From: Taiwanofungus camphoratus
Lineage: Eukaryota; Basidiomycota; Agaricomycetes; Polyporales; Taiwanofungaceae
Length of the DNA: 64,000 bases
Assembly: GCA_003999685.1 (NCBI GenBank)
Contig: CP021223.1
Location: 434,001-498,000 of the forward strand
Direction: 5' to 3'
Part shown: positions 14,004 to 40,799 of the stretch, piece by piece
Layout: the number at the start of each line of letters is the position of its first letter
Numbering within the stretch: position 1 is the stretch's first letter
Translations under genes and position numbers: made by a program
Notes under the pieces: generated by a model
Seen by the model: the letters and a program-made list of their open reading frames with translations, nothing else
Told to the model about the DNA's origin: nothing
The model's database searches: none

Positions 14004-17000
14004 TTACCCCCCTACTTATGATTGAACGCCTGGTCAATCAACTAAACTCCAATGGGGGACGTGTCGAGTTTCTCCGAGTTGAACTTTGGGCGACCATTGA
14101 CGAACTTGACGAACTTTCGAGGACAAACTTGAAAAACTTTTCTGGAAGTGACGAGCGGGTGTTTCACCGCGACCAATAAGGGATGACCCTTGAACCCATA
14201 GGGGATGACCCCTCCAACTGTGAGCATCCTTTCAGCTCGAACTTTACAGTTTTACGACATGTCGGTCGTACGGTGTAGTTTAACGACGTGCACGGTCGTT
14301 CCCTCGCAGTTTAACGACATGCAGGAACCACTCTGGATGGTATGGCGGTACCGGGTCGTTTGTGAATGCGTAACGGACGGCGGTGCATTCGCGCATAAGG
14401 TGCCCAGGCGATGGGCGACTACAGCGGAGACATTTGTAGTCGGGGCACGTCCTGTGCGAGTGATGAGTGCTACCGCAGAGGTAGCATGGACCGTAACAAG
14501 TGAACGAGGATGAAGGACCGTTTGACTGAGACATGCGAGTGATGAGTGGGGTGAAAATGCGACTGATTGTACTCATCGTAAGTTCTTGCGCTGCTTATAT
14601 GCGTCCAGCAGCTCGTCCGCAGTACCGGCTAAGTTCTCTTCCGGTTCCCATGAGTCATCGGCGGACGAGTAACCTTTCCACCTGACTCGGTATTCTCGGC
14701 GATTCCTTCAGCGATTCTCACGATGTCCGACCAGAGCTTTGACTTCGTAGTTATCTTCGCCGCTGATAAGCTCCGGTGGTGGTTCCGTGTAGTTGGGACC
14801 ATGGGTGTCCGTCTCGATGTATGGCGAAAGAAGTGCCACGTGGAAAATGGGGTGCACTCGCCATGTCGTCGGGAGTTTCAACTTGTAAGACACCGGTCCT
14901 AGAACGTCCGTGATTTCGAAGGGTCCCTCACGCTTGGGAGCCAACTTCCTTGTCGGGTATGGCAGCTTTAGGTTTCGTGAGTCTAGCCATACCTTTTGTC
15001 CTTTGCGGAAACCCGTTCCCTTGGGTTTCACGCGTCTTGCTAACACCGCCTGTGCTAGCTCCATTGCTGAGTGTGCGTTTTCCCGAATCTTCTGCAAGTT
15101 CCGCAGTCGATAAGCAGCGCCCGGTGTGTCCGATCCGACGTGTACGACGGGAATCCCTCGAGGTTCATAGCCCATCATGACCTTGAAGGGTGACGCCTTG
15201 ATTGTAGAGTGCTCACGCGAGTTGTGAGCGAACTGTGCTGAGCCCAGCAGCGATGACCAATTGTCCGGGTTGTTGCTCATGAAGCATCGCAGGTAGATTT
15301 CCAGTTCCTGGTTGACTCGTTCCGTTTCTCCATCCGTCTGAGGGTGGAACGCTGTGCTCATAGCCGACTTGACTCCAGTCATACGGCAGAGCTCCTGGAA
15401 TACCTTTGATGCGAATTGTGGTCCTCGATCGCTAATGATCTTGTCCGGAAGACCAAACCACTTGTAAACCTCGCGATATAATGCCTCGGCTGTTCCTGAT
15501 GCGTCGATCGTTTTGTTGCATGGGATGAAAATTACCCCCTTCGTAAGGTCGTGGTCCACAATGACCAAAATTGAATTGTAGCCCTCCAAAGTTGGCAAAT
15601 CTGTAATGAAGTCGCAGCAGAATGTACTGAACGGAGTGGCGTGCTGCGCGGATTTGATCGGGAGTAGGGCTGGTTGGGTGGGGTGCGTGTTAACTTTCAT
15701 TTGCTGGCAAGTGCCGCAACCTTTGACGTATCGCGTGACGAAGTCAGCCATTCCAGGCCACCAGTAATCTCGCCAAATAGACGAGAGAGTCTTTTGAATT
15801 CCAGGGTGGCCGGCGGAGGGGAGGTCGTGATAATTCGAAACTGTTTGTCGTTGTAGATCCTCGTTCAGGGGAATATACACCCGATTATCATAGAGGAGGT
15901 CTCCGTCTCGAATTGTCCAGTGGTCATTTGAGCCGTTTTGTGCCTCGCGCATCCCTTCCGTGTACACCGAGTCGTTTACGCATGCTTCCGCGATGGAAGC
16001 CCTGAGACTCGTGTCGATTGCTGCTGCCCATACCTTGTCTGGTAGGATGGTTACATCCTGGTTGTCCGATGAACCGTCGTCGTGGTCGGGGCGTCGGGAG
16101 AGCGCATCACTTTGCACCATTTGCGTTCCCGGGACATGAATTAACCTGTAATCGAATTTGGACAAGCGAAGAGCCCATCGCGCTTGCCTTCGATTCAGAT
16201 TCTGTGCCGTCTTCCAGTATGTCAGATTCTTGTGGTCGCTATAAATCATGACTGGATACGGGCTTCCGATGAGAAGGTGACTCCATTCGTTGAGTCCTCT
16301 CATGACGCCCATGAGTTCTCGGTCATAGACGTCGTAATTTTGTTCCGCTGGTGTCATACTCTGGGAAATATAACCACAAGGATGCCAATCACCATTGTCG
16401 TCCTTTTGTCTGAGGACGGCGCCTGTGACAAACTTTGATGCATCCGTTTCCAACGCGAATGGCTTCTCCGGGTCGGGCATCTGTAAAACCGGTTGTTCCA
16501 GGAAAGCTTTCTTCAGTGCCTCGAACACTTCCTGCTGTTCATCGTCCCAGTGCCATTTGACGTCTTTTCGCGTAAGCGAGACCAGAGGCTGGGCCAGATG
16601 CGAGAACCTATATGAACCGACGGTAGAAGTTCTCAAATCCGACGAACGACCGAACCTCTCTGAGGTTCTTCGGTATCGGCCAGTCCTTAATGCCGGCTAC
16701 CTTGACGGGGTCCATGGCGAGTTGTCCGGGTCTGATGATCATGCCTAAGAATTCGATTTCTTGCACGTCGAATTTGCATTTCTCCGGTTTGAGATACAGG
16801 TCGGCATCTCGAAGTCTTTCGATAACTCACCGTGTTCGCTTCTTGTGCTCCTTGGGGTCTGTCGAGTAGATAAGGATGTCGTCCATGTAGATTGCCAACC
16901 ATCCTTCCTTGAGCATGTCTGCGAAGACCGTGTTCATCATCTATTGGAACGTTGCCGGTGAGTTGCACATCCCGAAGAACATTACCAGGGGTTTGTAGAA

Positions 17001-19950
17001 CGAGGGAGGTCCTTCCCCGGCTGCTGGAACACCAAAAGCCGCTTTCCACTCGTCACCTTCCTTGATGCGAAGGTTGTTGTATCCTTGACGAAGGTCCATT
17101 TTCGTGAAGATCGTGGCGTTATTGAGGCGTTCCAAAAGCTCTGTTACGAGGGGAAGAGGGTACCTGTCTTTGATCGTTCCCTCGTTGAGTTCCCTATAGT
17201 CCTGGCAAGGTCGGTATCCGCCGTCCTTCTTGTCCACGAAGAAGAACGGACTTGCGAGTGGCGATTTGGATGGTCAGATGTATCCCTTCTCTATATTCTC
17301 TTCGAGGAACTTATCCAGTTCTGCTCGTTGATCCTGGTTGAGAGAATACGTCGTCTGCTTGAAGTCCTTAAAGTCTGGCTTGAGATTTATCTCGTGGTCG
17401 AACTCTGAGTGCTGGGGAAGTCTCGCTGCCTTAGCTTTGTCGAACACCGGGAGGAGATCGTGGAGGTACTCGGGGATGAGTTCCGTGACCGGTTTCTCCT
17501 CTTTCTTGACATGTTCCTTGATAGCGAGTTCCGTGGAGGTGGTGAGTCGACCGATGTCGTGCTTGACCTGCCAGATAAGACCGTTTTCGAGACGACAATA
17601 AGTTCCGTCGAGAGGGTACTTCTCTTTCATAAGCGGGGCGTCTTGATACGCCGGGTGTGAGTCCCGTCCATATGTCGTGATCCGATCGTCTCCCTCGATG
17701 AACGCTATGACCAGTTCATCGTCGTCGATCGTTTCCATCGCCTGATCCAATGTGATACCATTGACCGATTCTTCTACCAGGGGTGCGACTGGGATGTCGC
17801 GGCGTGCCGTCTGCCTAGACATGTCTGTTGTCGGCAAGACAGGAGACATGGTGTCGATCACCTCGAAGTCTCCTTCATCCTCTACCTCTTCAATGGTGGG
17901 CTGCCATTGTTGCTTGAGGCGTTTGTCTCGTTCGGCAAGGAATGCCGCTACCTGTGAACAAGGGGGTGCTGACCAGTCTACCTCATAATCTAGCACGGGA
18001 TCCAGGGCTTCTTCCTGTTCTCGTTCAGCTAGTTTCTTCAGCTCCAGTCGCGCTACTCGTTGCGCGACGATCCCCTTCTTCCACTCTCGAGACTCCTGCA
18101 GGGTCATGTGGTGCTTCAGTTCCACACGCCCTCCCTTCCAGTCGATATTGGGGTTCTCGAGTTTGAGCCATGTATGTCCGAAGATGACGTCTTCGTTCCC
18201 TATACTGGCCACGTATGCTTTGACAAACCGGGGCTCGTTCCCGATTTTGTATGACAGCAAGGCTCGTTTGTTGATGAGTGCTTGCTTATTGGCAGTGCCG
18301 TCCACGTTGAACACCAGTATTGGGCGTGGTAGTGCCTCGGTTCGTAACTTGTGTTCCTTAACAAATCGTGGATGCACGAATATTCCCGATGCGCCACTAT
18401 CGATGAAGGCGCGGGCTTCGATGGCTTTTCGTCCCACAGTAATCGGAATGTGCAAAGCTCTGTCATTCCGGACTACAAGCACAACATGGGACAGTGAAAT
18501 GGATATGGGCAGTGGTTGCGTCGGCTCACCCTGCCCCTTTAAAAATCCTTCGTTTCCTAACTCCTCGAACATCGCCCTTTTCTCATCCGATGAGAGCGTC
18601 TTGATGTACGAGCAGAAATTCATGGGGGATTGCACCTCGGGTTCCTTCGAGGTATTCCTTTGGCCTACCCTGGCCATCTTCTTTGGACACTTGCGCACCG
18701 TGTGTCCTTTCTTGTGGCAGTAGAAACATAGACGATTGTCCATGTGGTACTTCCTTTCCTTCTCGCTAAGGTTGCATCCGTCCTCCCACTTCTTGGTGAA
18801 CAGTGAGGGACGCGGGGTAGTGAGCGCGTCCACCTCCATGGGTTCGCCGTAGTCGACGTCGGTAGTGGCAGAGAGGGTTTGGTCGATCCCTCTGTAGACG
18901 GTGTCGAGGTGAAGAACATCGGTGTACCATTTCTCCATGGAGTTGGGTCGCTCCGTATTGGTGCGGCCTGCGAGTGTCGTGTAGATCTGGCGGTTCAGAC
19001 CCTTGGTGAAGATCGCCCTCAACGTGGGGTAATCGTTCTCGGTGCGTTGGCCTTGGAGGCTCGTGAAAGCGTCCTTTAACTTGGCCTTCTCTGCCAGGAG
19101 TCGGAACCTTTCCACATACATCTTCGTACTGACCCTGGTCTTCTTGTTTAGTTGCTTGGCCGGCAACTCCATTAGCACCTGATGAGCCCTCTGAACTCCT
19201 TCATGCTCGGGGAACGCGAGTCGCAAGCTCGCCTTGAATACGTCCCAGCTAGCGTAGGGAGCATGCCCTCCCGCGGCCCGTTCGTAAAACGTATCGCGCC
19301 AGATACGTGCATCCTGCCCTCCTTTCATGAGAGCGACTGAGTAAGCGATCTTTGCATCATCGCTCAACCCCTTATTGTTGGTGGCAGTGAGGTAGTGCTC
19401 CACCCGCTGGAGGAAACACTCCAGATCTTCTCCTTGCCCAGTGAACGGCTCCGGTGCAGGAATGTTGAGCTTAAGGGGTCGACTCCCCTGTTGCTGTTGC
19501 GCCGAAAGGTGCACTATAAGCGCCTCGAGCTCCGCCCTGGTCATTGTTGCGATAGTAGCCATCGTGGTGGGGGTGGTAGGTGTTACGGGGGTGGAAGGAA
19601 GTGATGGGAACGTAGGAGTGGTTGGAGTGGCTATCAACGGTGTCGAAGGTATCGACGCGGGAAAGAAACCAGCTGGGTCTCTTTCGTCTGGCGGAGGGTT
19701 ACGTCTGAAGTAGGAGGCTAATTTCTCCTGTGCTCGTCGATTCAAAATTGTCCCTGCCCACGCTAGTGGGGAGTTTGGGTAGATCAGATCAAGGTTCTGG
19801 TCAACGAAAGTTCAACGAAGATGATCGTACAGAAGCGGTGCGTTGTTTACTTGAGTCGGCAATCCCCAAGCGGTGGGGTCGACTGTCTCGATGGTAGACG
19901 TGGTGTCTAACGGTTAGCCCTACTAGATAAGACTAGGGGCGACTTAGCGA

Positions 19951-19962
19951 TAAGTTCGATCT
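19951..19962 (-). promoter_or_regulatory. Putative self-priming primer-binding site
   Basis: Two bases inside the 5' LTR, 12 nt are perfectly complementary to the predicted first bases of the element's own transcript (LTR positions 20,162-20,173). No tRNA 3'-end TGG is seen. Tf1/sushi chromoviruses are known to prime in this way; the assignment here is inferred from the complementarity alone. Confidence 0.65.
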
Positions 19963-19964
19963 TT

Positions 19965-20518
19965 TGATACAAGCTGGTATCAACGACCGGAAAGCCTCGA
20001 ACGTGAGGACCTGGCTACCGGAGATGGTAGTGAGGCTTTATGGACACTGCGTATGTCCTCCTGGGCGAAGTCAATAGAGTCGAGCAAGTACTCAGGTACA
20101 AAGCGAGAGGTCGCAAGATACGAGTATAAGATTGCTAGTGGTAACTAGCTACTTGGTAACCAGATCGAACTTAAGGTCCGACCTACAAAATACAGGGCCT
20201 TATATACGTATTCTACTCTGCGCACGGACCATGGCACGTGGTCTAGGAATCAGCATGAGTAAGTGTAAGTAAGGCGATATGAGTCATTGGGCCGTATTAG
20301 CAATCAGTAAACGTAAGACGGAAGGTGTAAGCGGGGCCCGATATGAGTCAGAGTCCATGAGTAACTGGGGCCCGTCCGGGGCCCGTACCGTAAGCAGCGA
20401 TGAGTCAAGATGCTGCGTGAAAAAGCTGGGCCTACCTGAGGCCCGTCCTAGAAGCGAAAGGTCACGAGACCGATCTGAGGTCCGACCGATAAGATATGCG
20501 ATAAAAGAAATTGTATCA
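19965..20518 (-). repeat. 5' LTR of chromovirus copy 1 with promoter
   Basis: 554-bp LTR. In element sense a TATATAAGG box (complement of about 20,198-20,206) lies about 30 nt before TTAAGTTCGATCT (complement of 20,162-20,173). That makes the latter the likely transcript start and thus the start of the R region. Confidence 0.9.
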
Positions 20519-21869: not shown

Positions 21870-23476
21870 TGATACGACCTAGGGGACCCTGGTACCTAGG
21901 GAGTGCTCCGCAACGTGGCTGGGGGTAGTGTGATAACTGTGAGGGTCTGAGGGTAGGAGCTACGACCTGTATGATACCAGGAAACCTGTATGTCTTGTTT
22001 TTGTAAGTGGGGGAGTAAGGGGTCAAGGGTCCTGCACAACAGGATCTTGTTCCTAAGTGCTATACGATCCCTAAGGCCTTGCAAGGCCCTCCGAAGTACG
22101 CGAAGTTCTTCGAGATTCTGCGAAGTCCTTCGAAGTTTTAGCTAAATCGCACGAGCTGACTTCGTAGATGCTGCGAAGTCCTTTTAGCTAGAGTTAGCTA
22201 AAGGGCGTATGGTTTAGAGGTTTGTTAGAGCGAGGTGGGCGAGGTTTGGCTAGCGTAGGAGACCTGTAGGAGAGGTCGGAGAGTTTGAGGGCGTAGGGCG
22301 ATGTACTATAGCCTGTAACTAAGGCTATGGGAGAGTCGTAGGGCTATTCGTAGGACGTAGGGATGACGCAACGTGAGCCTAAGGGTATAACTAAGGTGGA
22401 GGCCCACCAGATAGGTGCTATAAGAGGTGCTGCAGGGCGTGAAGTCACGGCGACTTCGTAGATCGTAGTGCGTAGTTCGGGAAGCGTAGACGTGGTTCGT
22501 AGATATATCGCGAGCACAGACGTAGTTCAAAGGTACTGAAACGGAGCTGGGGTGGAGACTTGGGGACCTTAGGACCGTTCCTAAGGTTGTACTCGCGGCA
22601 CTTTCCTGAGATCGGAGCTACAGGGGAACTAGTATTCCAACGAGAGAAGCGTGCACTGAGGGGTCTCTCTCGTACATAGTAAACTACCTCTGACTAAATA
22701 GGGGAGCGTGAGGTGAACTAATCTTGCACGAAGTGATCCTTACGAGTCCGAAATGTGTACTAAAACGCATGGACTCCGAAGTGAACACGAGGGGGATAGG
22801 AACTAATTAGGAACTGAAACAGGGGAACTACGAACGGTAGAAAGGTGACCAACTTCATTCACGAGGGCGGGATGACTATCCGAGAGCAGCCATGCGCCGT
22901 GATCACCTATCTTAGCGGGCTAAGAGCGCACGAAGTTCTTAGCAGCGGGACTTGGCCTAATCGGGGCAGAAGGTGTCCTAACTGGGTGGAGGGTCATATG
23001 GGTACGCCCTAGGATGACCTTATGGCATAGGATCGAGACCCATGGGGGTGCACAAGGCTTCCTAAGTCCAACTTCCGGAACTTCGGACCGTTTCGGAGCC
23101 CATCGGAGGTAACTGCAATCACAAGAGCTAGGAGAGACTTAGCTAAGACTTCTTAGCTAAGCCCGGGATGAGTGACGTAGTAGATGGGACCTAGATCCAA
23201 TGGAACAGTATGGGAGGGCCGGCAGTGTCCGATAGTGGACTTAGCAGGAGTTAGGGACTTTGCGTCTAGCATTCGAAACCTCGTAGCACCTCGTGTGACT
23301 TCACAAGACTTTGTAGGGTGTTAGAAGGGTTTAGGAAGGAGAGGGGGCGTTAGAAATATTATAGGAACCTATCCCTCCTGTCGTAGGCTGTAGGAGAGTC
23401 TTAGAGTGGTCGGTTGGGGGATTAGAAAGCTCCTAATAATCGCGATTCAGGGCCCAGGAGGCTACGGGACTCATCA
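21870..23476 (-). repeat. LTR A: family-2 gypsy LTR without target duplication
   Basis: 1,607-bp LTR running from TGATACGACC to GGACTCATCA, the ends of the family whose whole copy is at 23,771-35,850. It is more diverged from LTRs B and C than they are from each other. It shares several variants with the old stub at 40,116-40,797. The left flank (ACGA) is host sequence, while the right flank (ACGG) is the inside of chromovirus copy 2; they do not match as a target duplication. It is best read as a recombinant between two LTRs, with loss of the DNA between them. Confidence 0.88.
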
Positions 23477-23770
23477 ACGGCGATTGGCATCCGTGCGGTT
23501 ATATTTCCCAGAGCATGATGCCAGCGGAACGAAATTACGACGTCTATGACCAAGAACTCATGGGCGTCATGAGGGGACTCAATGAATGGAGTCATCTTCT
23601 CATCGGTAGCCCATATCCAGTCACGATTTATAGCGACCACAAGAATCTGACGTACTGGAAGACGGCACGGAACCTTAATCGGAGGCAAGCACGATGGGCT
23701 CTTCGCTTGTCCGAATTTGATTATAGGTTAATTCATGTACCGGGCACGCAAATGGTGCAAAGTGACGCGC

Positions 23771-25379
23771 TGATACGACCTAGGGGACCCTGGTACCTAG
23801 GGAGTGCTCCGCAACGTGGCTGGGGGTAGTGTGATAACTGTGAAGGTGTGAGGGTAGGAGCTACAACCTGTATGATACCGGGAAACCTGTATGTCTTGTT
23901 TTTATAAGTGGGGGAGTAAGGGGCCAAGGGTCCTGCACAACAGGATCTTGTTCCTAAGTGCTATACTAACCCTGAGGCCTTGCGAGGCCCTCCGAAGTAT
24001 GCGAAGTTCTTCGAGGTTTTTGCGAAGTCCTTCGAAGTTTTAGCTAAATCGCGCGAGCTGACTTCGTAGATGTTGCGAAGTCCTTCTAGCTAGAGTTAGC
24101 TAAAGGGCGTAAGGCTTAGGGGTGTGTTAGAGCGAAGTGGGCGAGGTCTGGCTAGCGTAGGAGACCTGTAGGAGAGGTCGGGGAGTTTGAGGGCGTAGGG
24201 AGCTGTACTATAGCCTGTAACTAAGGCTATGGGCGAGTCGTAGGGCTATTGGTAGGACGTAGGGCTAACGCAACGTGAGCCTAAGGGTATAACTAAGGCG
24301 GAGGCCCACCGGATAGGTGCTATATGAGGTGCCGAAGGGTGCGAAGTCACGGCGACTTTCGTAGATTGTAGTGCGTAGTTCGGGAAGTGTAGACGTGGTT
24401 CGTAGATATATCGCGAGCGTAGACGTAGTTCAAAGGTACTGAAATGAAGCTGGGGTGGAGACTTAGGGACCTTAGGACCGTTCCTAAGGTTGTCCTCGCG
24501 GCGCTTTTCCTGAGATCGGAGCTACAGGGGAACTGGTATTCCAAAGAGAGAAGCGTGCACTGAGGGGTCTCTGTCGTACATAGTAAACTACCTCTGACTA
24601 AATAGGGGAGCGTGAGGTGAACTAATCTTGCGCGAAGTGATCCTTACGAGTCCGAAATGTGTACTAAAACGCCTGGACTCCGAAGTGAACACGAGGAGGA
24701 TAGGAACTAATTAGGAACTGAAACAGGGGAACTACGAACGGTAGAAAGGTGACCAACTTCATTCACGAGGGCGGGATGACTATCCGAGAGCAGCCATGCG
24801 CCGTGATCACCTATCTTAGTGGGCTAAGAGCGCACGAAGTCCTTAGCAGCGGGACTTGGCCTAATCGGGGCAGGAGGTGTCCTAAATGGGTGGAGGGTCA
24901 TATGGGTACGTCCTAGGATGACCTTATGGCATAGGATCGAGACCCATGGGGGTGCACAAGGCTTCCTAAGTCCAACTTCCGGAACTTCGGACCGTTTCGG
25001 AGCCTATCGGAGGTAGCTGCAATCACAAGAGCTAGGAGAGACTTAGCTAAGACTTCTTAGCTAAGCCCGGGATGAGTGACGTAGTAGATAGGACCTAGAT
25101 CCAATGGAACAGTATGGGAGGGCCGGCAGTGTCCGATAGTGGACTTAGCAGGAGTTAGGGACTTCGCGTCTAGCATTCGAAATCTCGTAGCACCTCGTGT
25201 GACTTCGCAAGACTTCGTAGGGTGTTAGGAGGGTTTAGAAAGGAGAGGGGGCGTTAGGAATATTATAGGAACCTATCCCTCCTGTCGTAGGCTGTAGGAG
25301 AGTCTTAGAGTGGTCGGTTGGGGGATTAGAAAGCTCCTAAAATCGCGATTCGGGGGCCAGGAGGCTACGGGACTCATCA
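23771..25379 (-). repeat. LTR B: 3' LTR of the 12-kb element
   Basis: 1,609-bp LTR, nearly identical to 34,242-35,850. Around 23,995-24,110 it is dense in short inverted words of the CTTCG/CGAAG and TAGCTA type that could fold. Confidence 0.95.
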
Positions 25380-25547
25380 CCTCCTCCCTATTGAAATCCT
25401 GACTGTCCTCAGTCAGTGTGCGCGACCGTGGGAACTTGTAGCCTATCGCGTCCGATCTGCGAAGCGGGCGATATCCTGATAGAAGCTAATTGTGGGTGCC
25501 TCTTATCTTTTTCTCCTTTCTCCCCTTTTGCCTTTCCCTTCCCCATC

Positions 25548-26925
25548 ATGTTCGACGATATGGACTCTGATGGTGTTGGCCTAGCTCACAGCGATGTCCT
25601 GGCGCTCCTCGATTCTCGTCCGGAGGGCGTAGCGGAGGCCGAAGATTATCTGCGGTGGGCGAGGAACTTAGGACGTCGTGTGGTACGTATTCTCCTCGAT
25701 CGCTCGATACATCGTCTTCACTGCGTTATAGGGTAACTGGCGGGTCCTGTCCCAGGCTTCGAACGCTCCTGCCGATCCTACCTTAGAGGCCGCCATCGTC
25801 GAAGGTTTGACGGCGATCCTCCCTCTCGCGGACTCGTCGTGGATCTCGTGGGCCCGCACCAGTTTTCCTCAGTTCGCTGCTATGCTTCAAGAGCGAGACG
25901 CACAGCGCGAACTCGCCCGTGCGACCGAACGACTTCGTGTGGAGGCGGTCGAGCGCGCTGCGCTTGAACGTGCTGCCCAACTTGCGGCTTCGTCTTCTGC
26001 TCCTTCGCCGGCTCCTAGTCGTACCTCCTCGCGTACTCGTCGTCCCTCAGCTCGGGCCAAGGCAGCGGCTTCTACTCGCGCGGCTTCCCAGGCCAGCTCG
26101 ATCATGGCCTCCGTTTCTAGCGGCCAAGTTGGTGAACTCGCCTCGTCCACTAGTTCGGGTGTCTTCGTAGGGGTCCCTCCTACTCCGGGGAAGGACGCTG
26201 CGAAGGCGAAGGCTCCTCCGACGCCCGAAGCCCTGGCTAACATGGCGAAGGCGGCGGAGCATAGGCGAACTCATGCGAAGGTGAGTGCACGTCCTTTTCG
26301 TGACTGTTCGCGGCTTATCATTGCTACCTAGTGCGATCGCTGCAGCACCTACACCGCAGACTTCGAGTGCGAACTCCCCGCGGGCGCCGTGAAGTGTGGT
26401 AAGTGCCTGCGAGAGTCGCAGGGGTGTTATTGGGGCGGATTCTCCGTAGACGGTAAGGAGCGCGGCGTGCGCGTTTCGAAGCGTGGTAGGGCTTCTCGTG
26501 CCCTCGTTATCGTGACATTGCTGATGTTAAGACGTTCCCTAGCTGCGGGCCAACCTCCTCAGGTGTCCCCGCCTCGCGCCCGCGAGTCCAAGAAGGCGAA
26601 GTCGACCCCTGCACCTACGATGTCGCTCGAGGCCTCGCTGGCCCTTAACGGCGCTGAATACTTGGACGGCCTCACCCCTGCGCATCAAGCCGTTGTCGAA
26701 GGCCTCTGGTATGACCGCGCGATGGCCGAGAGTCGCGCGATGCGTCTCGAAGACTACATCTCGGGGCTCTATCGTGCCGAAACCGCCCTAACCGGTCGTA
26801 CGCCTGCGCCGCTCGACTTGAGCTCTCTCCCCCTTCCTCGCCGTCGCGTCGCCGCCTCCTCTACCGATCCTGGTCCCTCTGGTGAGTCCGAGCAGGATGA
26901 GGAAGATGCCGAGGCCGAGGTTTAG
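25548..26925 (+). CDS. Antisense accessory gene with Zn2Cys6-like cluster, 3 exons
   Basis: The gene lies between the 3' LTR and the end of pol of the 12-kb element but runs the opposite way. Open blocks 25,548-25,682, 25,756-26,280 and 26,332-26,925 are separated by GT-AG introns of 73 and 51 bp, both phase 0, giving 417 aa. Exon 1 begins MFDDMDSDGVGLAHSDVLAL. The middle is Ala/Arg/Ser-rich with a probable coiled coil (RELARATERLRVEAVERAAL). Exon 3 opens directly with a cysteine cluster of spacing Cx2Cx8Cx8Cx2Cx6C (residues about 221-252), close to the fungal Gal4-type Zn2Cys6 pattern Cx2Cx6Cx5-12Cx2Cx6-8C. The tail is acidic (ESEQDEEDAEAEV). An AATAAA signal follows at 27,049. I do not recognise the family. 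A DNA-binding regulator is only an inference from the cysteines; a structural Zn fold is equally possible. Confidence 0.75.
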
Positions 26926-27048
26926 AAGGTGGGGGGTTCGTAGTTCGTCATCTCGCTCGTTCCGTATCTGTCGCACCAACGTGCTGTATTCTCTCTCGTT
27001 GCGCGTCCCTTTGCTAGGGACCTTTTCCAATATGTGTACAGTAGTCTG

Positions 27049-27054
27049 AATAAA
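27049..27054 (+). terminator. Poly(A) signal AATAAA after the antisense gene
   Basis: Canonical hexamer 124 bp past the antisense gene's stop codon and well before the end of pol on the other strand. It supports an independent transcript. Confidence 0.5.
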
Positions 27055-28897
27055 GCGGACGCAAACGTCGTCCTTGTGAAAAGGTTCCTAAGTGCGTGAA
27101 GTAACCAAACAACACAGCGAAGAATTAGAAGACTTAGGGGGATAAAATGCGCTCATTTAGGCTCAGTAAATCATCATGGCCTTGAAGGGCTTAAGGCCCC
27201 TCGCGCAATCTTCGCTCCGCTCAGCGTTTTAGGAGCCTTTAGAACGATATCGCGACTTCGTGAGTTGAATCACTATAGTAAAAAGTAGGAGATGTTGTAA
27301 GTAAAAATTCGTAGACATTCGGAACTTCGTAGCTGTCAAAACTGAGTGGGGGACTTGTTGGGGAATGTAAAACATGACTAAAGGGTAAGCGAATAGTAAA
27401 ATGGACGTAGCGTAATCTTAGCTAAAGTCGGGGTATCGTCGATTGCTCCTCTGATTCTTTAGTGAGATTCGGATGGACTAGAGCCGGACTTAGGAGAGTA
27501 GGGATACGATCCTAGTTCTTCGTCATCGCCTTGGGTGGTAGTCAGCTCTAGTTCGCGAAGTCGCTCCGTCGACACGTCCAGGAGTTCGGTAGGAAGTTCG
27601 AGGGCTTTTCGCGCTAAGTAGGGGATGACTCGGAAGGCTGCCGTAGGCCTGTCGAGTACCGAACCATCCAATTCGCATAGGATATAAGCACCACCTTTGT
27701 TTCTAGATACCACGAGTACCGGGCCGAGGTAGCGAGGTCGCATCTTTCGATTTAGGGACTTTTCTATCTGTGTGTTGCGAATTAGTACTAAATCGCCCTT
27801 TTCGAAGTTGAAATCGTGGATGGTGTGCTTATGCTTTTCTTCGAATCGCAGAGCAGCTTGTCTTCGCGCTTCGTAGACCTTCGAATGTAGTTCCGCTACC
27901 TGAGTCACCCGCTTTTGCAATGCGATAGCTCTACGTGCGATAAGATCGGTCGTGGATAGCATGGAGGACGGAGGAGGAAGGATATAGGTGGCCTCTACGA
28001 CGTCCAAAGGGATAACAGGGTGGGTGCCAGTGACCGCGAAATAGGGCGAACATCCCATGCGCTTTCTAGTCGTGATCCTTTCGGACCAGAAGACTGAGTA
28101 CGTTGCCTGAGACCATTTAGACTCTTCGCCATCCACGGCCTTGAATAGAGCCTGCCTAACATCGAAGTGAGGCCTCTCCACCAGTCCGTTGGCACGCGAA
28201 TTGTATCCGCTAATTCGGATATGTCGTAGCTGGTACTTCTTCGCTATGTAGTTCGTAGCTTTTACGAAGGGAGCACCGTTGTCCGTGACTATCTCCGATA
28301 GCGCGCCCCACCTACAGACCAAGTCTTCGAAGAGCCATTCTGCCAAGGCTTTAGCCGTCTCCTTGCGAAGCATCCGAAATTCGGGGTACTGGGTTAGAGA
28401 ACACCGGCCTTGCACCAAGTACCTAAATCCGTTAGAAGGGGGCATATGCATGGTATCTATGTGAACCTTTGCGAAGATCGGAGCGGGCGTAGCGACCGTA
28501 GGAGGAATTAGGATCTGCCGCACTTGGCGAATCTGGCATAGGTGGCAGCTTCGAACATACCAGGCAATGTCGATATGATGGTAGGGCCACCAAAACCGCT
28601 CTGAAATCAGCACCTTCGTAGCGTGTATTCCTCGATGCGCGACTGCATCGTGACATTCTCGGAGGATTCGTAGACGATCTGCCTGCTTAACAACTAGTTT
28701 GTGAGCTCCTTGTGGATCTTTGCGCCAAAGTATGTCCTCGTCGAGGAAGAATAGAAGACAGTATTTTACGAAACCTTCGTATTCTGAATCTGATAGGTTG
28801 GCAGGTCTCGCGAGGCTTCGTAGGAATTTTGCTACTAAGTCAAGTCTTGCGTCAGCTTCCTTGGCCATTTCGGATCTTGGGACGCTATCGTAGCTCT

Positions 28898-28930
28898 CCT
28901 CCTCCCTATTGAAACCTTGGCTGTCCTCAG
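28898..28930 (-). promoter_or_regulatory. Central polypurine-tract-like repeat inside pol
   Basis: 33 bp match the tract next to the 3' LTR (25,380-25,412) at 30 positions. In sense, both read AATAGGGAGGAGG preceded by a shared CTGAGGACAG. The site lies just before the integrase zinc domain in pol. Central polypurine tracts in this part of pol are known from lentiviruses and Ty1; use here is inferred. Confidence 0.5.
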
Positions 28931-31900
28931 CCAACTCGGAGGCGAAGGTTGGAGCTATCGGAGGTGTGGGGGTTGTGATAGGAATGTTAGAGGCGAATTC
29001 GTAAGGGAATAGGGTAGAAATCGATGGTATAGGATGAGAAGGGGGGGCTTGGATGTGATGTAGAAACGAGTGCATTTTGTCTATCCAGTCTTCGAAGTCT
29101 TCTTCGCTGCTCTCTTCTTGATCTCCTGGCTGGGGGGTTCGTCTTGATAGTCCATCTGGTCCATGCATCGTACCTGGTACATGTACTAGGGTGAAATGGA
29201 ATGTTAGAATCGATACGATCCAGCGATTTATACTCGCGCTGGGTGCGATGTCCGGATTTTGCAACATCCCTTTGATATAGCGTGCGTCCACTTCCACTAT
29301 AAGGTTCCTAACTCCGATTAGGTAGATTCGTAGTACGCGAAGTGCTCGAAACAATCCGTAGATCTCTAACTTCGGTTGCGAGAACCTCCGCTCGCGATCA
29401 TTTAGGGTGATGGATCCGAAACGATTGTAGAATCGGACTTTAGGGTTGTCCTCATCGCATTGGCAAAGGTGATAGCCAACTGCAATATAGGAGGTGTCAA
29501 CCGCTAAGATGACGGGCGCACCTGACAAATAGTTAATGGATCGGAGAGCTGGAGAGGACAGCAAAGCATCCTTAAGGTCCTCTTGCGCTGCGATTTGCGC
29601 TGGACCAAATTCGAAGGGTACCGCCTTTCGCGTTAGGCGTACTAAGGCATCTGCACGATGCGCGAAGTTTCGGATGAAGATACGGACCACTCCAATGGTT
29701 CCTAAAAAGGCTCGAACGTCAGATAGGGTCGCACAAGGTCCCCAGTTGCGTATGGCTGCAACACGAGACTCGTCCGGTAGGCGACCTTCTGGAGTACACC
29801 GATGCCCCACAACGGTGATTTCGCGGGCAATTAGAATGCTTTTAACTCCAGAAAAGGTACCTCCTGCGTAGCGCATGCGTGTGACTATCCTATTGAGGTT
29901 CGTAAAATGTTCCCAAACAAACTTTCGAATGCCTGGGTTCTCCGAAATAGGTACGAGATCGTACGAACTTTCAGGGCCTTTGACCGGAACATCGTCGATA
30001 TAGGGAACTGTTAGGTGAGGAATTTCGGGCTGTAGGATGTGCGTAACATCATCGTGGAAGATAGGGACCGAGTTGGTCCATCCCATAGGTAGAGTGACCA
30101 ATCTCATAGCTCCGAAAGGTGTTTGAAATGTCGTAAGATCGCGCGAAGTCTCCGCTATCAAGCGTTCATCATAGCCTACATATAGATCCAACATAGCACC
30201 ACAAGGTCGTCCTCCGAACTGTTCTGCGAGGTGTTCGGGAGTCGGGGGAACGCCTGAGTGTTGAATCGTGACAGCGTTTAGGGGTTCCAGACTATGTACG
30301 AGACGTAGGGACTTTCCGTCTTTCTTCACCACACAAAACCATCGTGAACGATAGGAAGAATTCGAAGGTTCGTAGACCCCCGCTGCGATCTTCTTTTTGA
30401 TTATTGCGCACACTTCGTTGTAGATTCCGGGTGGGATAGGAATGTTCTTTTGTACCCATGGCGTGTGCGGTACTACCGGAAAGTCGATAGGAGGGAAGTA
30501 CTCCGGCTTGAAGCACCCCCTTTCGGAGTCATTCCAAGCGAACGCATCAGCGTGTAGGGTCATAAAATGATGTAGTAGGTCCCTCTCTGCTGGTTGTAGG
30601 AAGTCTCCACTGTGTAGCTTGTCCGTGAGATCGTGCCGTTCTTGCGTATATCGCGAAGTAGGTTCGAAAGGTGGTGGAGTCGGTGATAGGGTAGGCATCG
30701 TCGCTAAAGGTTCGCCTTTAATTTCGCGAATGATTCGGAATCGTTCGTCCAAAGCTCCCAGAATAGGGCGAGTCTTCAGCGCTACAGGCTTGTACTTCTT
30801 TTTCGATGCTGCAAATGTAGGAATAGGGGAAGAATCTGACAACTTAGGAAGGGATACCATCGGATTAGGAGCAAGGGAGGGTCTTCGGGCTGACTTCGTG
30901 ACCTTCGTAGCGTTCCTGGGACCTGGAATGGGGATAGAGGATATGTCTTTAGAGGCGGAAAGCGAAAGCATAGGGAGAGAATTCGGATTATCGTGTGAAA
31001 GGAAGGGAGCCTCGTGCGGTGTTGCTGCTGCTAGAAAGCCAGATAGCCACCTAGTATGATCAGCCGGACCTTCCGAGACTTTCGAAGTTTCGCTAAAATA
31101 GAGAGACTGCAGATAGCTAGACACAGAGTTAGAGACTGATAGATAGAGCGCAGGAACAGAATTGTTATCTGCTGCATTTACAGCAGCGAAAGACACGATT
31201 TTAGGGGTATCGGATTCATACTCAACGACCAGGGCGACCTCTCCTTGATTTCTCAAATCCTCGAAATCTAAAAACCCGATCGCAAATGATTCGAAGAGTT
31301 CGCGTGGGGGCAACTATGATGATGGGCTGGTAAGAACTTTTGACGTCCTCGAGGCATCGTAGGGATGGTCGCGACTTCGCTCGTGTTCGGGCATACGATC
31401 GTGATGGTCTGCTCCTCGTTTCCGAAGTTCTTAACCACACTCTCGGTTACCACATCGAAGGGACGGCCTAGAAGGATATCGTAGGAGGGATTGCGTATGA
31501 CGTGTATCTGTAGGTACAACACGATGTCGCCTACTTGGAACGAGACATTTCGAACCAGTCCTAAAGAACGGTCAATACTGCCATTAGCAGACTGCATATT
31601 TAGCTGCACGGAAGGGTCGTAAATTAGCCCTAAGGCATGACAGACTTGCTCTGACATCGCAACCACTTGTGACCCAGGGTCCACGATGCATTCGATTCGC
31701 TCTTTGTTGTCGATTAGGGCTTCGATAGAACGGATAGAGTTCGAGTCGCGGGCTACTATGATTTCGGAGGGTTCTTCCTTTCCGGGTACGTGTCGTAAGT
31801 ACGTTTCGTAGGGGTCTGGAATGATGGTCGAACCAGGGACAAGGGGTTCACCATGGCACGATAGTTCGGAGGTTGCTAGCGTCGTTTTAGAAGTGAGATC

Positions 31901-34241
31901 GTCTGAGAGTTCCGTAATTTGAGCCATATGAGTAGCCTTAGGATCCATAGGCACACGTTTAGGGGTGATAGCCTCGCGATATCGCGCACGAACATCCGGG
32001 GATATAGATAGTAGCTCCTCGGGCGTTAGTGTAACCACTGGTGTTCTCATAGATCGCGCGAATATTTCCTCTGTAAGTTTCTCCTGATGAACCGGTGTGA
32101 TCGTCTTATAGGCCACGTCCTTGCCTTTATCTGCTGTAGGCTTCGGAGCTGCTGCGAAATTTCGAAGATTCGGAGGTGCGTAAGTAGCATCTCGAGCATT
32201 AGCGAAAGGATGTACTGGTGGAGCGGGCGGTGGAATGGCTGCCTGTGATGCTGGTTGGGCTGGTACGTTAGGTGTAGACGAGGCATGCTCTGATGAGTTC
32301 GTGGGCGGATCGGACGCATTCGCAGGCTTCGGAGGCGAAGGCGCTGAATTAGAAGGATAATTGGATCGCCTTAGAATGGTAGGAGGGGTCTGGTTCTGCG
32401 TCTCTGCCACTGGGGCATCTTGGTTAGCAGGGGGATCCACTACCGGATGCCGATCGTGTCCTATCGGAGGTGCGTTGGCTATGGGTGGGTTTCTAGGATC
32501 AGACTGCGCGTTAGGAGCACCCTGCCTTCTGCGCTGGGGTACTTCCACACCATCGAAGACTTCGCGACGTCTCCGAAGTTGGTAAATCTCGTGTTCTAAA
32601 GCGGCTATACGATCCTCGGCGGATAGTGAGAATGCGGGCACATTTAGGCGATTGTCGATTTCGAATAGGAGCTGTGGGGAGGAATTCGTGCCATTTCGTC
32701 GATGATATTCGTAAAGCCTATCGCGAATCGTACGCCCTGGGATCGTTCTGGGTACGAAATTTCCATTTGGCAGCACTATCTTTCCATCTGGGTTGCGCTT
32801 GCACTTGCCATCCTTGATGTCTTGCTCGATGTGCTTGCAACACCTAGTGCAGCAGTCCAAGTCCCCGCAATAGTGACAGTACTGGCCTTCTACATGAGTG
32901 TGCTCGCCGCGCGAGCTGTCCAATCGAGGGGGTCGCTGGTTCGCAAGAACAGGAGCTAGCGCACTGGTTACGGACTTCGTGAGGATCTCTGCGAACGTCT
33001 GTAGATCCTCTATCTTTAGCGATGAGCCCCCCACGGGCATGGTAGTGGTCGAAGTAGTTACAGTCGTAGCAGAGGTAAGAGTCGTAGAAGTACCAAGGAG
33101 TACGAACTTTGCTGCGCTATGTAGCTGGTCCAAGGTGTAGGGATCATCGGGTAAGTGATCAGGGAACTTTAGCTGTAACCTAGTAGACACGCGAGCCCAT
33201 AGCGAAGGCTGGAAGGCCCTCGTGAAAGCACGGCTTTGCTCGATAGTAGACAACCTATTTTTCGAAATTAGGTACTTCGTGATGGCATAAAACTCACGAT
33301 AGAAGCTTCCTAAGTCTGCCGCATTGTTGATTCCAATTCTAGCACGTTCTCCTATCAACTGATCCAAGTCAGACATAGACCACATTCTATTGTCCTCTGT
33401 GCCTGGGTAGAGGCTTCTAATCTCCTTCTTGAAGTCTTCGTAGGTCTTCGTGACATCGGAACACTCAGGGAGGGACTCCCATAGGTCCGAAACATCGATA
33501 GGAGGGTAGCGAGTAGTCCAGTGTTTCTTCGTCGCCTCATCCGCTATCTGGCAGCGGACAAAAAGTGACTCTAAGTCCTGGAAATACCTTCGGATGGTCC
33601 TAGGCTGGTCAGGATCGAAGGTAGGGGATGTACGATCTCCTCGAGGCGGCATGAGTGGAGGTGCGTTCATGGTTGACACAGAAATAGGATTTAGGGGATT
33701 AGCTAAAATGGGTGCAGTCAGAGATGGGTTCGAAGCTGAGTTGATGCTAGCCGAAGAAGATTGGGTCGTAGAAGCGTCGGAAAGTGTAATAGAAGGAATC
33801 GGAGGGGAACGCGAAGCTGATGGGAGCGTAGAGGATAGCTGAGGGGATGCCGGTAAATGGACTAAGATAGGGTCAGACGCTGAAGAAGGACCGCTTCCTT
33901 CGGAGGTGTTAGGAAGCTCAGGGGACGTGGACTGAGGTTCGAAGTCCTCAATTGGTGAGTCTTCGGACGTGGTAAGCGTGTCTAGAGACCCTTCGAAAAG
34001 AGCCTCAAAGTCGGGGGTCAATTCGGAAGATTCGAGTGTAGAAATGATATCGGAGGGGATAGTCGTAGGTGTTCGCGAAGAGGTGCTTCGTGGAAGGCCT
34101 GCTTGAGTATAGTAACGATAGCCGACCTGAAAGAACTCGGATAGTAACTGATCGCTGTTTCTCGGAGAGGACTGGTTAGACGTAGGATGATCTGAAGGCA
34201 ATGAAATCTTGACTGCTCCCCCTCGCGGTGGGCTCCAGAAA

Positions 34242-35850
34242 TGATACGACCTAGGGGACCCTGGTACCTAGGGAGTGCTCCGCAACGTGGCTGGGGGTAG
34301 TGTGATAACTGTGAAGGTGTGAGGGTAGGAGCTACAACCTGTATGATACCGGGAAACCTGTATGTCTTGTTTTTATAAGTGGGGGAGTAAGGGGCCAAGG
34401 GTCCTGCACAACAGGATCTTGTTCCTAAGTGCTATACTAACCCTGAGGCCTTGCGAGGCCCTCCGAAGTATGCGAAGTTCTTCGAGGTTTTTGCGAAGTC
34501 CTTCGAAGTTTTAGCTAAATCGCGCGAGCTGACTTCGTAGATGTTGCGAAGTCCTTCTAGCTAGAGTTAGCTAAAGGGCGTAAGGCTTAGGGGTGTGTTA
34601 GAGCGAAGTGGGCGAGGTCTGGCTAGCGTAGGAGACCTGTAGGAGAGGTCGGGGAGTTTGAGGGCGTAGGGAGCTGTACTATAGCCTGTAACTAAGGCTA
34701 TGGGCGAGTCGTAGGGCTATTGGTAGGACGTAGGGCTAACGCAACGTGAGCCTAAGGGTATAACTAAGGCGGAGGCCCACCGGATAGGTGCTATATGAGG
34801 TGCCGAAGGGTGCGAAGTCACGGCGACTTTCGTAGATCGTAGTGCGTAGTTCGGGAAGTGTAGACGTGGTTCGTAGATATATCGCGAGCGTAGACGTAGT
34901 TCAAAGGTACTGAAATGAAGCTGGGGTGGAGACTTAGGGACCTTAGGACCGTTCCTAAGGTTGTCCTCGCGGCGCTTTTCCTGAGATCGGAGCTACAGGG
35001 GAACTGGTATTCCAAAGAGAGAAGCGTGCACTGAGGGGTCTCTCTCGTACATAGTAAACTACCTCTGACTAAATAGGGGAGCGTGAGGTGAACTAATCTT
35101 GCGCGAAGTGATCCTTACGAGTCCGAAATGTGTACTAAAACGCCTGGACTCCGAAGTGAACACGAGGAGGATAGGAACTAATTAGGAACTGAAACAGGGG
35201 AACTACGAACGGTAGAAAGGTGACCAACTTCATTCACGAGGGCGGGATGACTATCCGAGAGCAGCCATGCGCCGTGATCACCTATCTTAGTGGGCTAAGA
35301 GCGCACGAAGTCCTTAGCAGCGGGACTTGGCCTAATCGGGGCAGGAGGTGTCCTAAATGGGTGGAGGGTCATATGGGTACGTCCTAGGATGACCTTATGG
35401 CATAGGATCGAGACCCATGGGGGTGCACAAGGCTTCCTAAGTCCAACTTCCGGAACTTCGGACCGTTTCGGAGCCTATCGGAGGTAGCTGCAATCACAAG
35501 AGCTAGGAGAGACTTAGCTAAGACTTCTTAGCTAAGCCCGGGATGAGTGACGTAGTAGATAGGACCTAGATCCAATGGAACAGTATGGGAGGGCCGGCAG
35601 TGTCCGATAGTGGACTTAGCAGGAGTTAGGGACTTCGCGTCTAGCATTCGAAATCTCGTAGCACCTCGTGTGACTTCGCAAGACTTCGTAGGGTGTTAGG
35701 AGGGTTTAGAAAGGAGAGGGGGCGTTAGGAATATTATAGGAACCTATCCCTCCTGTCGTAGGCTGTAGGAGAGTCTTAGAGTGGTCGGTTGGGGGATTAG
35801 AAAGCTCCTAAAATCGCGATTCGGGGGCCAGGAGGCTACGGGACTCATCA
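34242..35850 (-). repeat. LTR C: 5' LTR of the 12-kb element
   Basis: 1,609-bp partner of LTR B. It ends at CATCA just before the second GCGC of the target duplication. Confidence 0.95.
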
Positions 35851-36286
35851 GCGCTCTCCCGACGCCCTGACCATAACAACGGTTCATCAGACAACCAGGA
35901 TGTAACCATCCTACCAGACAAGGTATGGGCAGCAGCAATCGACACAAGTCTCAGGGCTTCCATTGCGGAAGCATGCGTAAATGACTCGGTGTATACGGAA
36001 GGGATGCGCAATGCACAAAGTGGCTCAAACGACCACTGGACAATTCGAGATGGGGACCTCCTTTATGATAATCGGGTATATATTCCCCTGGACGAGGACC
36101 TCTGACGACAAACGGTCTCGAATTACCATGACCTCCCCTCCGCCGGCCACCCTGGAATTCAGAAGACTCTCTCGTCTATTCGACGAGACTACTGGTGGCC
36201 TGGAATGGCTGACTTTGTCACGCGATACGTCAAAGGTTGTGGCACTTGCCAGCAAATGAAAGTTAACACGCACCCCACCCGACCGG

Positions 36287-37894
36287 TGATACGACCTAGG
36301 GGACCCTGGTACCTAGGGAGTGCTCCGCAACGTGGCTGGGGGTAGTGTGATAACTGTGAAGGTGTGAGGGTAGGAGCTACAACCTGTATGATACCGGAAA
36401 ACCTGTATGTCTTGTTTTTATAAGTGGGGGAGTAAGGGGCCAAGGGTCCTGCACAACAGGATCTTGTTCCTAAGTGCTATACTAACCCTGAGGCCTTGCG
36501 AGGCCCTCCGAAGTATGCAAAGTTCTTCGAGGTTTTGCGAAGTCCTTCGAAGTTTTAGCTAAATCGCGCGAGCTGACTTCGTAGATGTTGCGAAGTCCTT
36601 CTAGCTAGAGTTAGCTAAAGGGCGTAAGGCTTAGGGGTGTGTTAGAGCGAAGTGGGCGAGGTCTGGCTAGCGTAGGAGACCTGTAGGAGAGGTCGGGGAG
36701 TTTGAGGGCGTAGGGAGCTGTACTATAGCCTGTAACTAAGGCTATGGGCGAGTCGTAGGGCTATTGGTAGGACGTAGGGATAACGCAACGTGAGCCTAAG
36801 GGTATAACTAAGGCGGAGGCCCACCGGATAGGTGCTATATGAGGTGCCGAAGGGTGCGAAGTCACGGCGACTTTCGTAGATCGTAGTGCGTAGTTCGGGA
36901 AGTGTAGACGTGGTTCGTAGATATATCGCGAGCGTAGACGTAGTTCAAAGGTACTGAAATGAAGCTGGGGTGGAGACTTAGGGACCTTAGGACCGTTCCT
37001 AAGGTTGTCCTCGCGGCGCTTTTCCTGAGATCGGAGCTACAGGGGAACTGGTATTCCAAAGAGAGAAGCGTGCACTGAGGGGTCTCTCTCGTACATAGTA
37101 AACTACCTCTGACTAAATAGGGGAGCGTGAGGTGAACTAATCTTGCGCGAAGTGATCCTTACGAGTCCGAAATGTGTACTAAAACGCCTGGACTCCGAAG
37201 TGAACACGAGGAGGATAGGAACTAATTAGGAACTGAAACAGGGGAACTACGAACGGTAGAAAGGTGACCAACTTCATTCACGAGGGCGGGATGACTATCC
37301 GAGAGCAGCCATGCGCCGTGATCACCTATCTTAGCGGGCTAAGAGCGCACGAAGTTCTTAGCAGCGGGACTTGGCCTAATCGGGGCAGGAGGTGTCCTAA
37401 CTGGGTGGAGGGTCATGTGGGTACGCCCTAGGATGACCTTATGGCATAGGATCGAGACCCATGGGGGTGCACAAGGCTTCCTACGTCCAGCTTCCGGAAC
37501 TTCGGACCGTTTCGGAGCCTATCGGAGGTAACTGCAATCACAAGAGCTAGGAGAGACTTAGCTAAGACTTCTTAGCTAAGCCCGGGATGAGTGACGTAGT
37601 AGATAGGACCTAGATCCAATGGAACAGTATGGGAGGGCCGGCAGTGTCCGATAGTGGACTTAGCAGGAGTTAGGGACTTCGCGTCTAGCATTCGAAATCT
37701 CGTAGCACCTCGTGTGGCTTCGCAAGACTTCGTAGGGTGTTAGGAGGGTTTAGGAAAGAGAGGGGGCGTTAGGAACTTTATAGGAACCTATCCCTCCTGT
37801 CGTAGGCTGTAGGAGAGTCTTAGAGTGGTCGGTTGGGGGATTAGAAAGCTCCTAAAATCGCGATTCGGGGGCCAGGAGGCTACGGGACTCATCA
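36287..37894 (-). repeat. LTR D: solo family-2 LTR
   Basis: 1,608-bp LTR alone within chromovirus copy 2, flanked by the 4-bp duplication CCGG. That marks an insertion followed by LTR-LTR recombination. Its ends match LTRs B and C, but a block near 37,330-37,560 carries variants shared with LTR A. Confidence 0.92.
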
Positions 37895-39561
37895 CCGGCC
37901 CTCCTCCCGATCAAATCTGTGCAGCATGCCACTCCGTTCAGCACTTTCTGCTGCGATTTCATTACGGATTTGCCAACTTCAGAGGGCTACGATTCAATTT
38001 TGGTCGTTGTGGACCATGACCTTACGAAGGGGGTAATTTTCATTCCATGCAACAAAACGATTGACGCATCAGGAACAGCCAAGGCATCATATCGCAAGGT
38101 TTACAAGTGGTTTGGTCTTCCGGACAAGATCATCAGCGATCAAGGACCACAATTCGCATCAAAGGTATTCCAGGAGCTCTGCTGTATGACTGGAGTCAAG
38201 TCAGCCATGAGCACAGCATTCCACCCTCAAACGGATGGAGAAACGGAACAAGTCAACCAGGAACTGGAGATCTATCTGCGATGTTTCACAAGCAACAACC
38301 CGGACAATTGGTCATCGCTGCTGGGCTCAGCACAATTCGCTCACAACTCGCGTGAGCATTCGACAATTAAGGCGTCACCCTTCAAGGTCATGATGGGCTA
38401 TGAACCTCGAGAGATTCCCGTCGTACACCCCGGATTGGACACACCGGGCACTGCTTATCGACTGCGGAACTTGCAGAAGATTCGGAAAGACGCACACTCA
38501 GCAATGGAGCTAGCACAGGCGGTGTTAGCAAGACGCGTGAAACCCAAGGGAACGGGTTTCCGCAAAGGACAAAAGGTATGGCTAGACTCACGGAACCTAA
38601 AGCTGCCATACCCGACAAGGAAGTTGGCTCCCAAGCGTGAGGGACCCTTCGAAATCACGGACGTTCTAGGACCGGTGTCTTACAAGCTGAAACTCCCGAT
38701 GACATGGCGAGTGCACCCCGTTTTCCACGCCGCACTTCTTTCGCCATACACCGAGACGGACACCCATGGTCCCAATTACACAGAACCACCGCCGGAGTTT
38801 ATCAGTGGCGAAGATAACTACGAAGTCGAAGCTCTGGTCGGACATCGTGAGAATCGCCGAAGGAACCGCCAAGAATACCGAGTCAGGTGGAAAGGTTACT
38901 CATTCGCCGATGACTCATGGGAACCGAAAGAGAACCTAGCCGGTACTGCGGACGAGCTGCTAACGCATATAAGCAGCGCAAGAATTACGATGAGTAAAAC
39001 CAGTCGCATTTTCACCCCACTCATCACCTGCATGTCTCAGTCAAACGGTCCTTCATCATCGTTCACTCGCTATGGTCCATGCTACCTCTGCGGTAGCACT
39101 TGTCACTCGCACCGGACGTGCCCCGACTACAAATGTCTCCGCTGTAGTTGCCCATCGCCTGGGCACTTTACGCGCGAATGCACCGCCGTCAACTACGCAT
39201 TCGCCAACGACCCGGTACCGCCATATCATCCAGAGTGGTTCCTGCATGTCGTTAAACTGCGAGAGAACGACCATGCATGTCGTTAAACTACAACGCACGA
39301 CCGACATGTCGTAAAACTGTAAAGTTCGAGCTGAAAGGATGCTCGCGGTTGGAGGGGTCATCCCCTATGGGTTCAAGGGTCATCCCTTATGGGTCGCAGT
39401 GAAACACCCGCTCGTCACTTCCAGGAAAGTTTTTCAAGTTCGTCCTCGGAAGTTCGTCAAGTTCATCGACGGTCGCTAAAAGCTCGACTCGGAGAGACTC
39501 GACGTGTCCCCGTTGGAGTTTAGTTGATTGACCAGGTGTTCAATCATAAGTAGGGGGGTAA

Positions 39562-40797: not shown

Positions 40798-40799
40798 CT

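Follow-up and report, generated by a model that had tools for sequence, protein, structure and literature searches.

An intron-bearing antisense gene with a six-cysteine motif in a young Ty3/gypsy-like element: a candidate accessory gene

How does a retrotransposon with gag and pol on one strand come to hold a gene with introns on the other, and does that gene belong to the element? The question is raised by a stretch of 64,000 nucleotides, hereafter the window, which we infer from its gene content and short introns to be nuclear fungal DNA. Host-like ORFs at one side of the window match mevalonate diphosphate decarboxylase, LRR plus endonuclease/exonuclease/phosphatase, kelch and aldo/keto reductase families, and a nest of LTR elements fills approximately 13-41 kb. 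The element in question, Ty3/gypsy-like and 12,080 bp long (23771-35850), has gag and pol on the minus strand. On the plus strand, inside the element and in the interval between pol and the 3' LTR, a coding frame of 45, 175 and 197 codons begins at an ATG at 25548. The original prediction placed an intron-bearing gene on this strand and in this interval, and it is found there.

The element itself is well defined. Its 3' LTR (23771-25379, minus strand, TG...CA) and 5' LTR (34242-35850, minus strand) are each 1609 bp long and identical at 1607 of 1609 positions, and the pair is flanked by a GCGC target-site duplication (left copy at 23767-23770, right copy at 35851-35854). Rejoining the empty site across GCGC restores a chromovirus pol frame (VQSDALSRRPD). 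A polypurine tract, AGGGAGGAGG (25380-25389, minus strand), adjoins the 3' LTR. A probable primer-binding site, TGGAGCCCACCGCGAGG (34221-34237, minus strand), lies 4 nt inside the end of the 5' LTR and is assigned by its position and TGG start only; an ARAGORN scan for tRNA genes returned none. The gag-protease ORF (31268-34267, minus strand) spans 999 aa from stop to stop, or 800 aa from its first Met at 33670, and matches Asp_protease_2 and gag-asp_proteas in Pfam above the cut-off. Upstream of that Met, the gag frame (33671-34267) runs for 199 open codons with no ATG and reaches near the primer site. The pol ORF (27459-31313, minus strand, 1284 aa) is in a different frame from gag and carries YIDD, RNase H, the integrase H2C2 and the residues D953, D1011 and E1046. 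Pfam matches its RNase H and integrase zinc-binding domains, and the D,D35E spacing is present; as neither RVT_1 nor rve was matched at E 1, the reverse transcriptase (YIDD) and the integrase core (D,D35E) are assigned from motifs. Folding of the RNA across the gag/pol overlap gave nothing unusual (z 1.15). Paired LTRs, target-site duplication, polypurine tract, gag-protease and a pol with RNase H preceding integrase together place the element in Ty3/gypsy. With only two differences between the LTRs and with both gag and pol open, the description of a young gypsy element stands.

Further LTRs of the same family occur nearby. A solo LTR at 36287-37894, with CCGG on each side and approximately 98.7% identity to the 3' LTR, apparently landed in the integrase part of the chromovirus that is also split by the full element. 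A second solo LTR (21870-23476) is 95.5% identical, and a truncated one (40116-40798) is 92% identical. Together with the full element, these amount to four insertions of one family within approximately 19 kb, probably of differing age. Chromovirus sequence also lies in the surroundings (13450-20518 and 37894-40121), with one copy on the minus strand and pieces of a related chromovirus on the plus strand; their matched arms are 91-95% alike. At the end of the plus-strand copy stand an integrase and a chromodomain. Queries with gag, pol and the antisense protein found no second copy of the element's internal region in the window. Searches of viral contigs with pol, the reverse transcriptase core and the gag N-terminus, and of prokaryote contigs with the reverse transcriptase core, confirmed no relative.

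The predicted structure of the antisense gene, with three exons, two phase-0 GT-AG introns, a product of 417 aa and a downstream AATAAA, is borne out at the locus and on the plus strand. Its ATG, 168 bp into the internal region, has A at -3 and directly follows a promoter- or leader-like pyrimidine-rich stretch (25508-25547, plus strand) that is 95% C+T, a richness equalled by 0.04% of 40-bp windows between 20000 and 45000. Stretches rich in C+T ahead of the ATG are a common look of fungal promoters. Exon 1 (25548-25682, 45 codons) is followed by predicted intron 1 (25683-25755, 73 nt, GTACGT...CAG, phase 0), the acceptor of which is ambiguous, in that an alternative AG ending at 25731 leaves the frame intact and lengthens the product to 425 aa (1278 nt, the longest frame). 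Exon 2 (25756-26280, 175 codons) encodes an Ala/Arg/Glu-rich helix-like stretch and then a basic linker rich in Ser, Ala and Pro. Predicted intron 2 (26281-26331, 51 nt, GTGAGT...CTAG, phase 0) is in frame with a single stop at its 3' end, such that its retention would yield a 236-aa form without the cysteine cluster. Exon 3 (26332-26925, 197 codons and a stop) encodes the cysteine cluster, basic patches and an acidic C-terminus, and a possible poly(A) signal, AATAAA, follows at 27049-27054. All of these features are on the plus strand.

The least demanding account of such a frame is that it arose by chance in a GC-rich stretch and that there is no gene. Here, as in the period-3 and cysteine-pattern tests below, the nulls were first-order Markov resamples rather than exact shuffles. 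An ORF of 199 aa or longer appeared in 7% of 1000 resamples of the interval and in 14% of 1000 resamples of the gene stretch, which makes the length of a single ORF weak evidence of coding and lends chance some room; two ORFs of at least 197 aa appeared in 0.3% and 1.3% of the same resamples, respectively. A spliced frame of at least 1254 nt, on the other hand, occurred in none of 300 resamples of 25380-27458 (longest 1101 nt) and in none of 300 resamples of 25548-26925 (longest 942 nt). The best spliced frame observed was 1278 nt on the plus strand versus 357 nt on the minus strand. Also on the side of chance, a minus-strand ORF of 159 aa overlaps the gene. It is one of two env-like ORFs in the interval that are sense to the element, the other being of 127 aa. 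The 159-aa ORF was rejected as coding; a codon model trained on host ORFs scores it at -0.128 versus -0.034 for the plus frame, and it lacks avoidance of A-ending codons (0.95). In the model trained on gag and pol, the corresponding comparison is -0.146 for the best minus frame versus -0.128 for the plus frame.

Frame-specific signals speak against chance more directly. When base-position preferences were trained on two exons and the third was scored, the annotated frame was the best of six for all three exons, and the same was true of a codon model built from four host ORFs. With a model trained on gag and pol, the annotated frame was the best of six in two of the three exons; exon 1 narrowly fails, a reverse frame scoring -0.055 versus -0.095. 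Short stretches are indecisive in this test, as one of the reverse frames of intron 1, only 73 nt long, reaches scores on a par with the exons (-0.013 host-trained, 0.048 gag/pol-trained). The period-3 chi-square values of exon 2 (54.9) and exon 3 (28.9) each exceed all 2000 resamples, and that of exon 1 (14.7) falls below the resample maximum of 28.0. GC content falls from 0.59-0.64 across the exons to 0.51-0.53 in the introns and nearest flanks, and stands at 0.44 in 27080-27458. Judged from its sequence, the antisense gene looks coding, and the frame-specific codon signal of its last two exons suggests selection on the protein at some time. Given these signals, the spliced-frame result and the gene-like ends, we regard a chance frame as very improbable. 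The same codon signal also tells against a proposal in which the antisense RNA itself does the work, feeding back on the element through dsRNA or siRNA with the reading frame secondary. Antisense promoters, non-coding products and siRNA roles of LTR elements are discussed in what we cite of PMC7264820, and as an account of this locus we hold the proposal to be improbable.

If the gene encodes a protein, the codons themselves bear on where it came from. A-ending codons make up 18 of 274 four-fold degenerate codons in the antisense gene versus 339 of 1212 in gag and pol (Fisher 2e-16); the two remaining forward frames of the gene give 50 of 284 and 55 of 273. When 30 window ORFs of at least 150 aa are ranked by relative use of A-ending four-fold codons, the two lowest values belong to exons 2 and 3, in that order; exon 1 falls below the length limit of this ranking. 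Among single amino acids, Lys is AAG in 13 of 13 cases, Ile is ATC in 6 of 6, and Pro is CCA in 0 of 29.

Such usage, far from that of gag and pol and nearer that of the host, would easily be explained by recent capture of a host gene: read-through or recombination would have brought it, in reverse orientation, into this element or a small subfamily, and it would now travel as a passenger without a role in transposition. The A-ending share of four-fold codons is 7% in the antisense gene, 14-17% in the four host ORFs and 26-30% in gag and pol; codon usage correlates at 0.50 with the host and 0.36 with gag and pol; coding GC is 63% versus 50-52%; and the gene has introns. This distance from gag and pol, with the nearness to the host, is the strongest result against residence, as a gene long settled in the element would not be bound to show it. 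Nevertheless, the avoidance of A-ending codons is stronger than in the host ORFs tested (18/274 versus 109/697, Fisher 8e-5), the usage would also follow if a resident gene were highly expressed, Pfam returned no domain typical of ordinary host genes, and the gene occupies the interval typical of resident antisense ORFs in other elements. A repeat scan of 25380-27600 gave short matches only; an imperfect 20-nt inverted pair (75%) that flanks the gene (25468-25487 and 27234-27253) was among 11 inverted pairs listed and is taken as chance. Recent capture is the main rival explanation, serious but rather doubtful.

The encoded protein is rich in Ala, Ser and Arg, with basic patches, and has a net charge of -7 over its first 40 residues. 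The predicted acidic tail is present, at -8 over the last 17 residues. The six-cysteine motif, CDRCSTYTADFECELPAGAVKCGKCLRESQGC (26332-26427, plus strand), matches the Cx2Cx8Cx8Cx2Cx6C pattern exactly as had been proposed. A broader double-CxxC pattern occurs at two places in the six-frame window and in none of 20 Markov-resampled windows. The other place is a double zinc-knuckle-like motif at 52554-52679 on the minus strand, within a 97-aa frame. Of the coiled-coil-like stretch in the original prediction, what survives is a modest helix-like stretch, the coiled-coil claim itself being weak on a/d counts. The best proline-free windows of 28 residues start at residues 342 and 98; hydrophobic residues fill 7 of 8 a/d positions with Ala counted, and 5 of 8 without, in the first, and 6 of 8 and 3 of 8, respectively, in the second.

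The motif resembles the fungal zinc cluster (Zn2Cys6, PF00172) in its six cysteines, two CxxC pairs and Cx6C end, and the original prediction had set it close to that pattern. The canonical form is Cx2Cx6Cx5-12Cx2Cx6-8C with a basic first loop. Here, unlike that form, Cx8C replaces Cx6C between cysteines 2 and 3, and the loop, STYTADFE, contains neither Lys nor Arg. Zn_clus was unmatched at E 1 with the whole protein and at E 10 with a 55-aa segment around the cysteines, in searches in which HMMER filters may drop matches above approximately 0.1. Zn2Cys6 membership was thus rejected by profile, spacing and basic loop alike, although metal binding by the motif is plausible. No Pfam family was matched by the antisense protein at a meaningful level. 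Sub-threshold scores were taken as noise, namely SDP_N (E 0.15 with the whole protein, 0.044 with exon 2), POU2F1_C (0.8 and 0.16) and zf-CRD (0.062 with the cysteine segment). A sequence search of PDB returned nothing for exon 3 and one chance-level match for the cysteine segment (E 0.48), and AlphaFold2 models from single sequences were too poor to use (pLDDT 43 and 47). The 417-aa product had no relative confirmed in viral contigs (19 pattern matches) or prokaryote contigs (150), nor had the 55-aa cysteine segment in viral contigs (12 pattern matches); these collections being viral and prokaryotic, and the scan being seeded by exact short peptides, such absence, for the product as for the element, says little about fungi.

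On balance, we lean slightly towards the antisense gene being an accessory gene of the element that encodes a nuclear, HBZ-like regulator and has its own promoter or leader, adjacent to the 3' LTR, and its own poly(A) signal. Its position, orientation, gene model and coding signal, and the youth of an element with open gag and pol, are read directly from the DNA. The gene-like ends, and a place and orientation typical of antisense accessory ORFs (aORFs), add to the case; a single copy, a weak exon 1, codon usage unlike that of gag and pol, and the lack of a Pfam or PDB relative detract from it. In the mechanism we envisage, RNA polymerase II would read the gene from around the C+T-rich leader and the host would splice out both introns. 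Retrotransposition would leave the introns in place, since the genomic RNA is of the opposite strand and contains them as reverse complements, invisible to the spliceosome; the earlier argument that orientation fits intron survival, with the minus strand as genomic RNA, is sound as reasoning. The protein, with a metal-binding-type six-cysteine motif, basic patches and an acidic tail, may act in the nucleus to regulate transcription of the element or of the host, and retention of intron 2, giving the shorter form, could serve as a switch. A bolder version, in which this gypsy lineage evolved a spliced antisense cysteine-cluster nuclear regulator of the element independently of the deltaretroviruses, with a splice switch at intron 2, seems to us unlikely.

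LTR elements with antisense accessory genes are known from plants and from one fungal family. A fungal copy such as this one, young and with gag and pol both open, would permit a direct test, as its clear introns mark antisense transcripts unambiguously, and the strong codon bias of the gene points to real translation. Should the gene prove resident and conserved, it would represent a retroviral-style antisense regulator in fungi; should it prove captured, the element would offer a neat example of a retrotransposon that transduces a gene with its introns preserved.

How, then, does this gene compare with those already described? Zhao et al. 2011 reportedly gave the original account of brtn in Boty-like elements. 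PMC7264820 lists brtn of Boty with the antisense ORFs that occupy the interval from pol to the 3' LTR, and PMC8365987 notes an antisense gene in Boty of Botrytis cinerea and Sclerotinia sclerotiorum. Boty is thus, like the present element, a fungal LTR element with an additional antisense gene, the likeness covering its described position and orientation. The claim of novelty must be narrowed accordingly, since a fungal gypsy element with an antisense gene is already in print; an intron-bearing or cysteine-cluster antisense gene in a fungal LTR element was not found in the literature searched, most subscription journals lying outside it. In PMC3248453, which treats fungal LTR elements, the words 'antisense' and 'intron' are absent from the main text. 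Boty differs in that its gag-pol is described with a chromodomain (in the portion of PMC4227169 cited), whereas the pol of the present element has no Chromo match in Pfam.

The plant aORFs, as they appear in the main texts of PMC7264820 and PMC11963269, share the interval and orientation of the antisense gene in the cases of Grande gene23, RIRE2, Retand ORF4 (TRP28) and PvRetro13. Nuclear or DNA-binding properties are reported or predicted for them, and regulatory roles for antisense accessory ORFs are suggested, in these papers; according to PMC7264820, the Grande antisense protein is nuclear and its gene has its own promoter. The plant proteins carry TRP28 (PF04195) or SMC domains, neither of which was matched in the antisense protein. 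Words in 'intron' occur in neither main text, and 'splic' occurs two times in one and five times in the other.

Splicing instead recalls the deltaretroviruses, for which we draw on PMC3185765. HBZ (HTLV-1) and APH-2 (HTLV-2) are transcribed from starts within the 3' LTR, where the major HBZ form also has its ATG, unlike the present gene, whose ATG at 25548 is outside the 3' LTR that ends at 25379. A bZIP domain is present in HBZ, absent from APH-2 and unmatched in the antisense protein. Like the antisense gene, however, both are spliced antisense genes near the 3' LTR, and they encode regulators of viral transcription (PMC3185765), HBZ being at once spliced, antisense and regulatory. Nuclear and regulatory roles for the antisense protein are inferred from this analogy, HBZ being the closest working analogue known to us; together with the place and orientation shared with the plant and Boty accessory ORFs, it leads us to favour a nuclear regulator encoded by the element.
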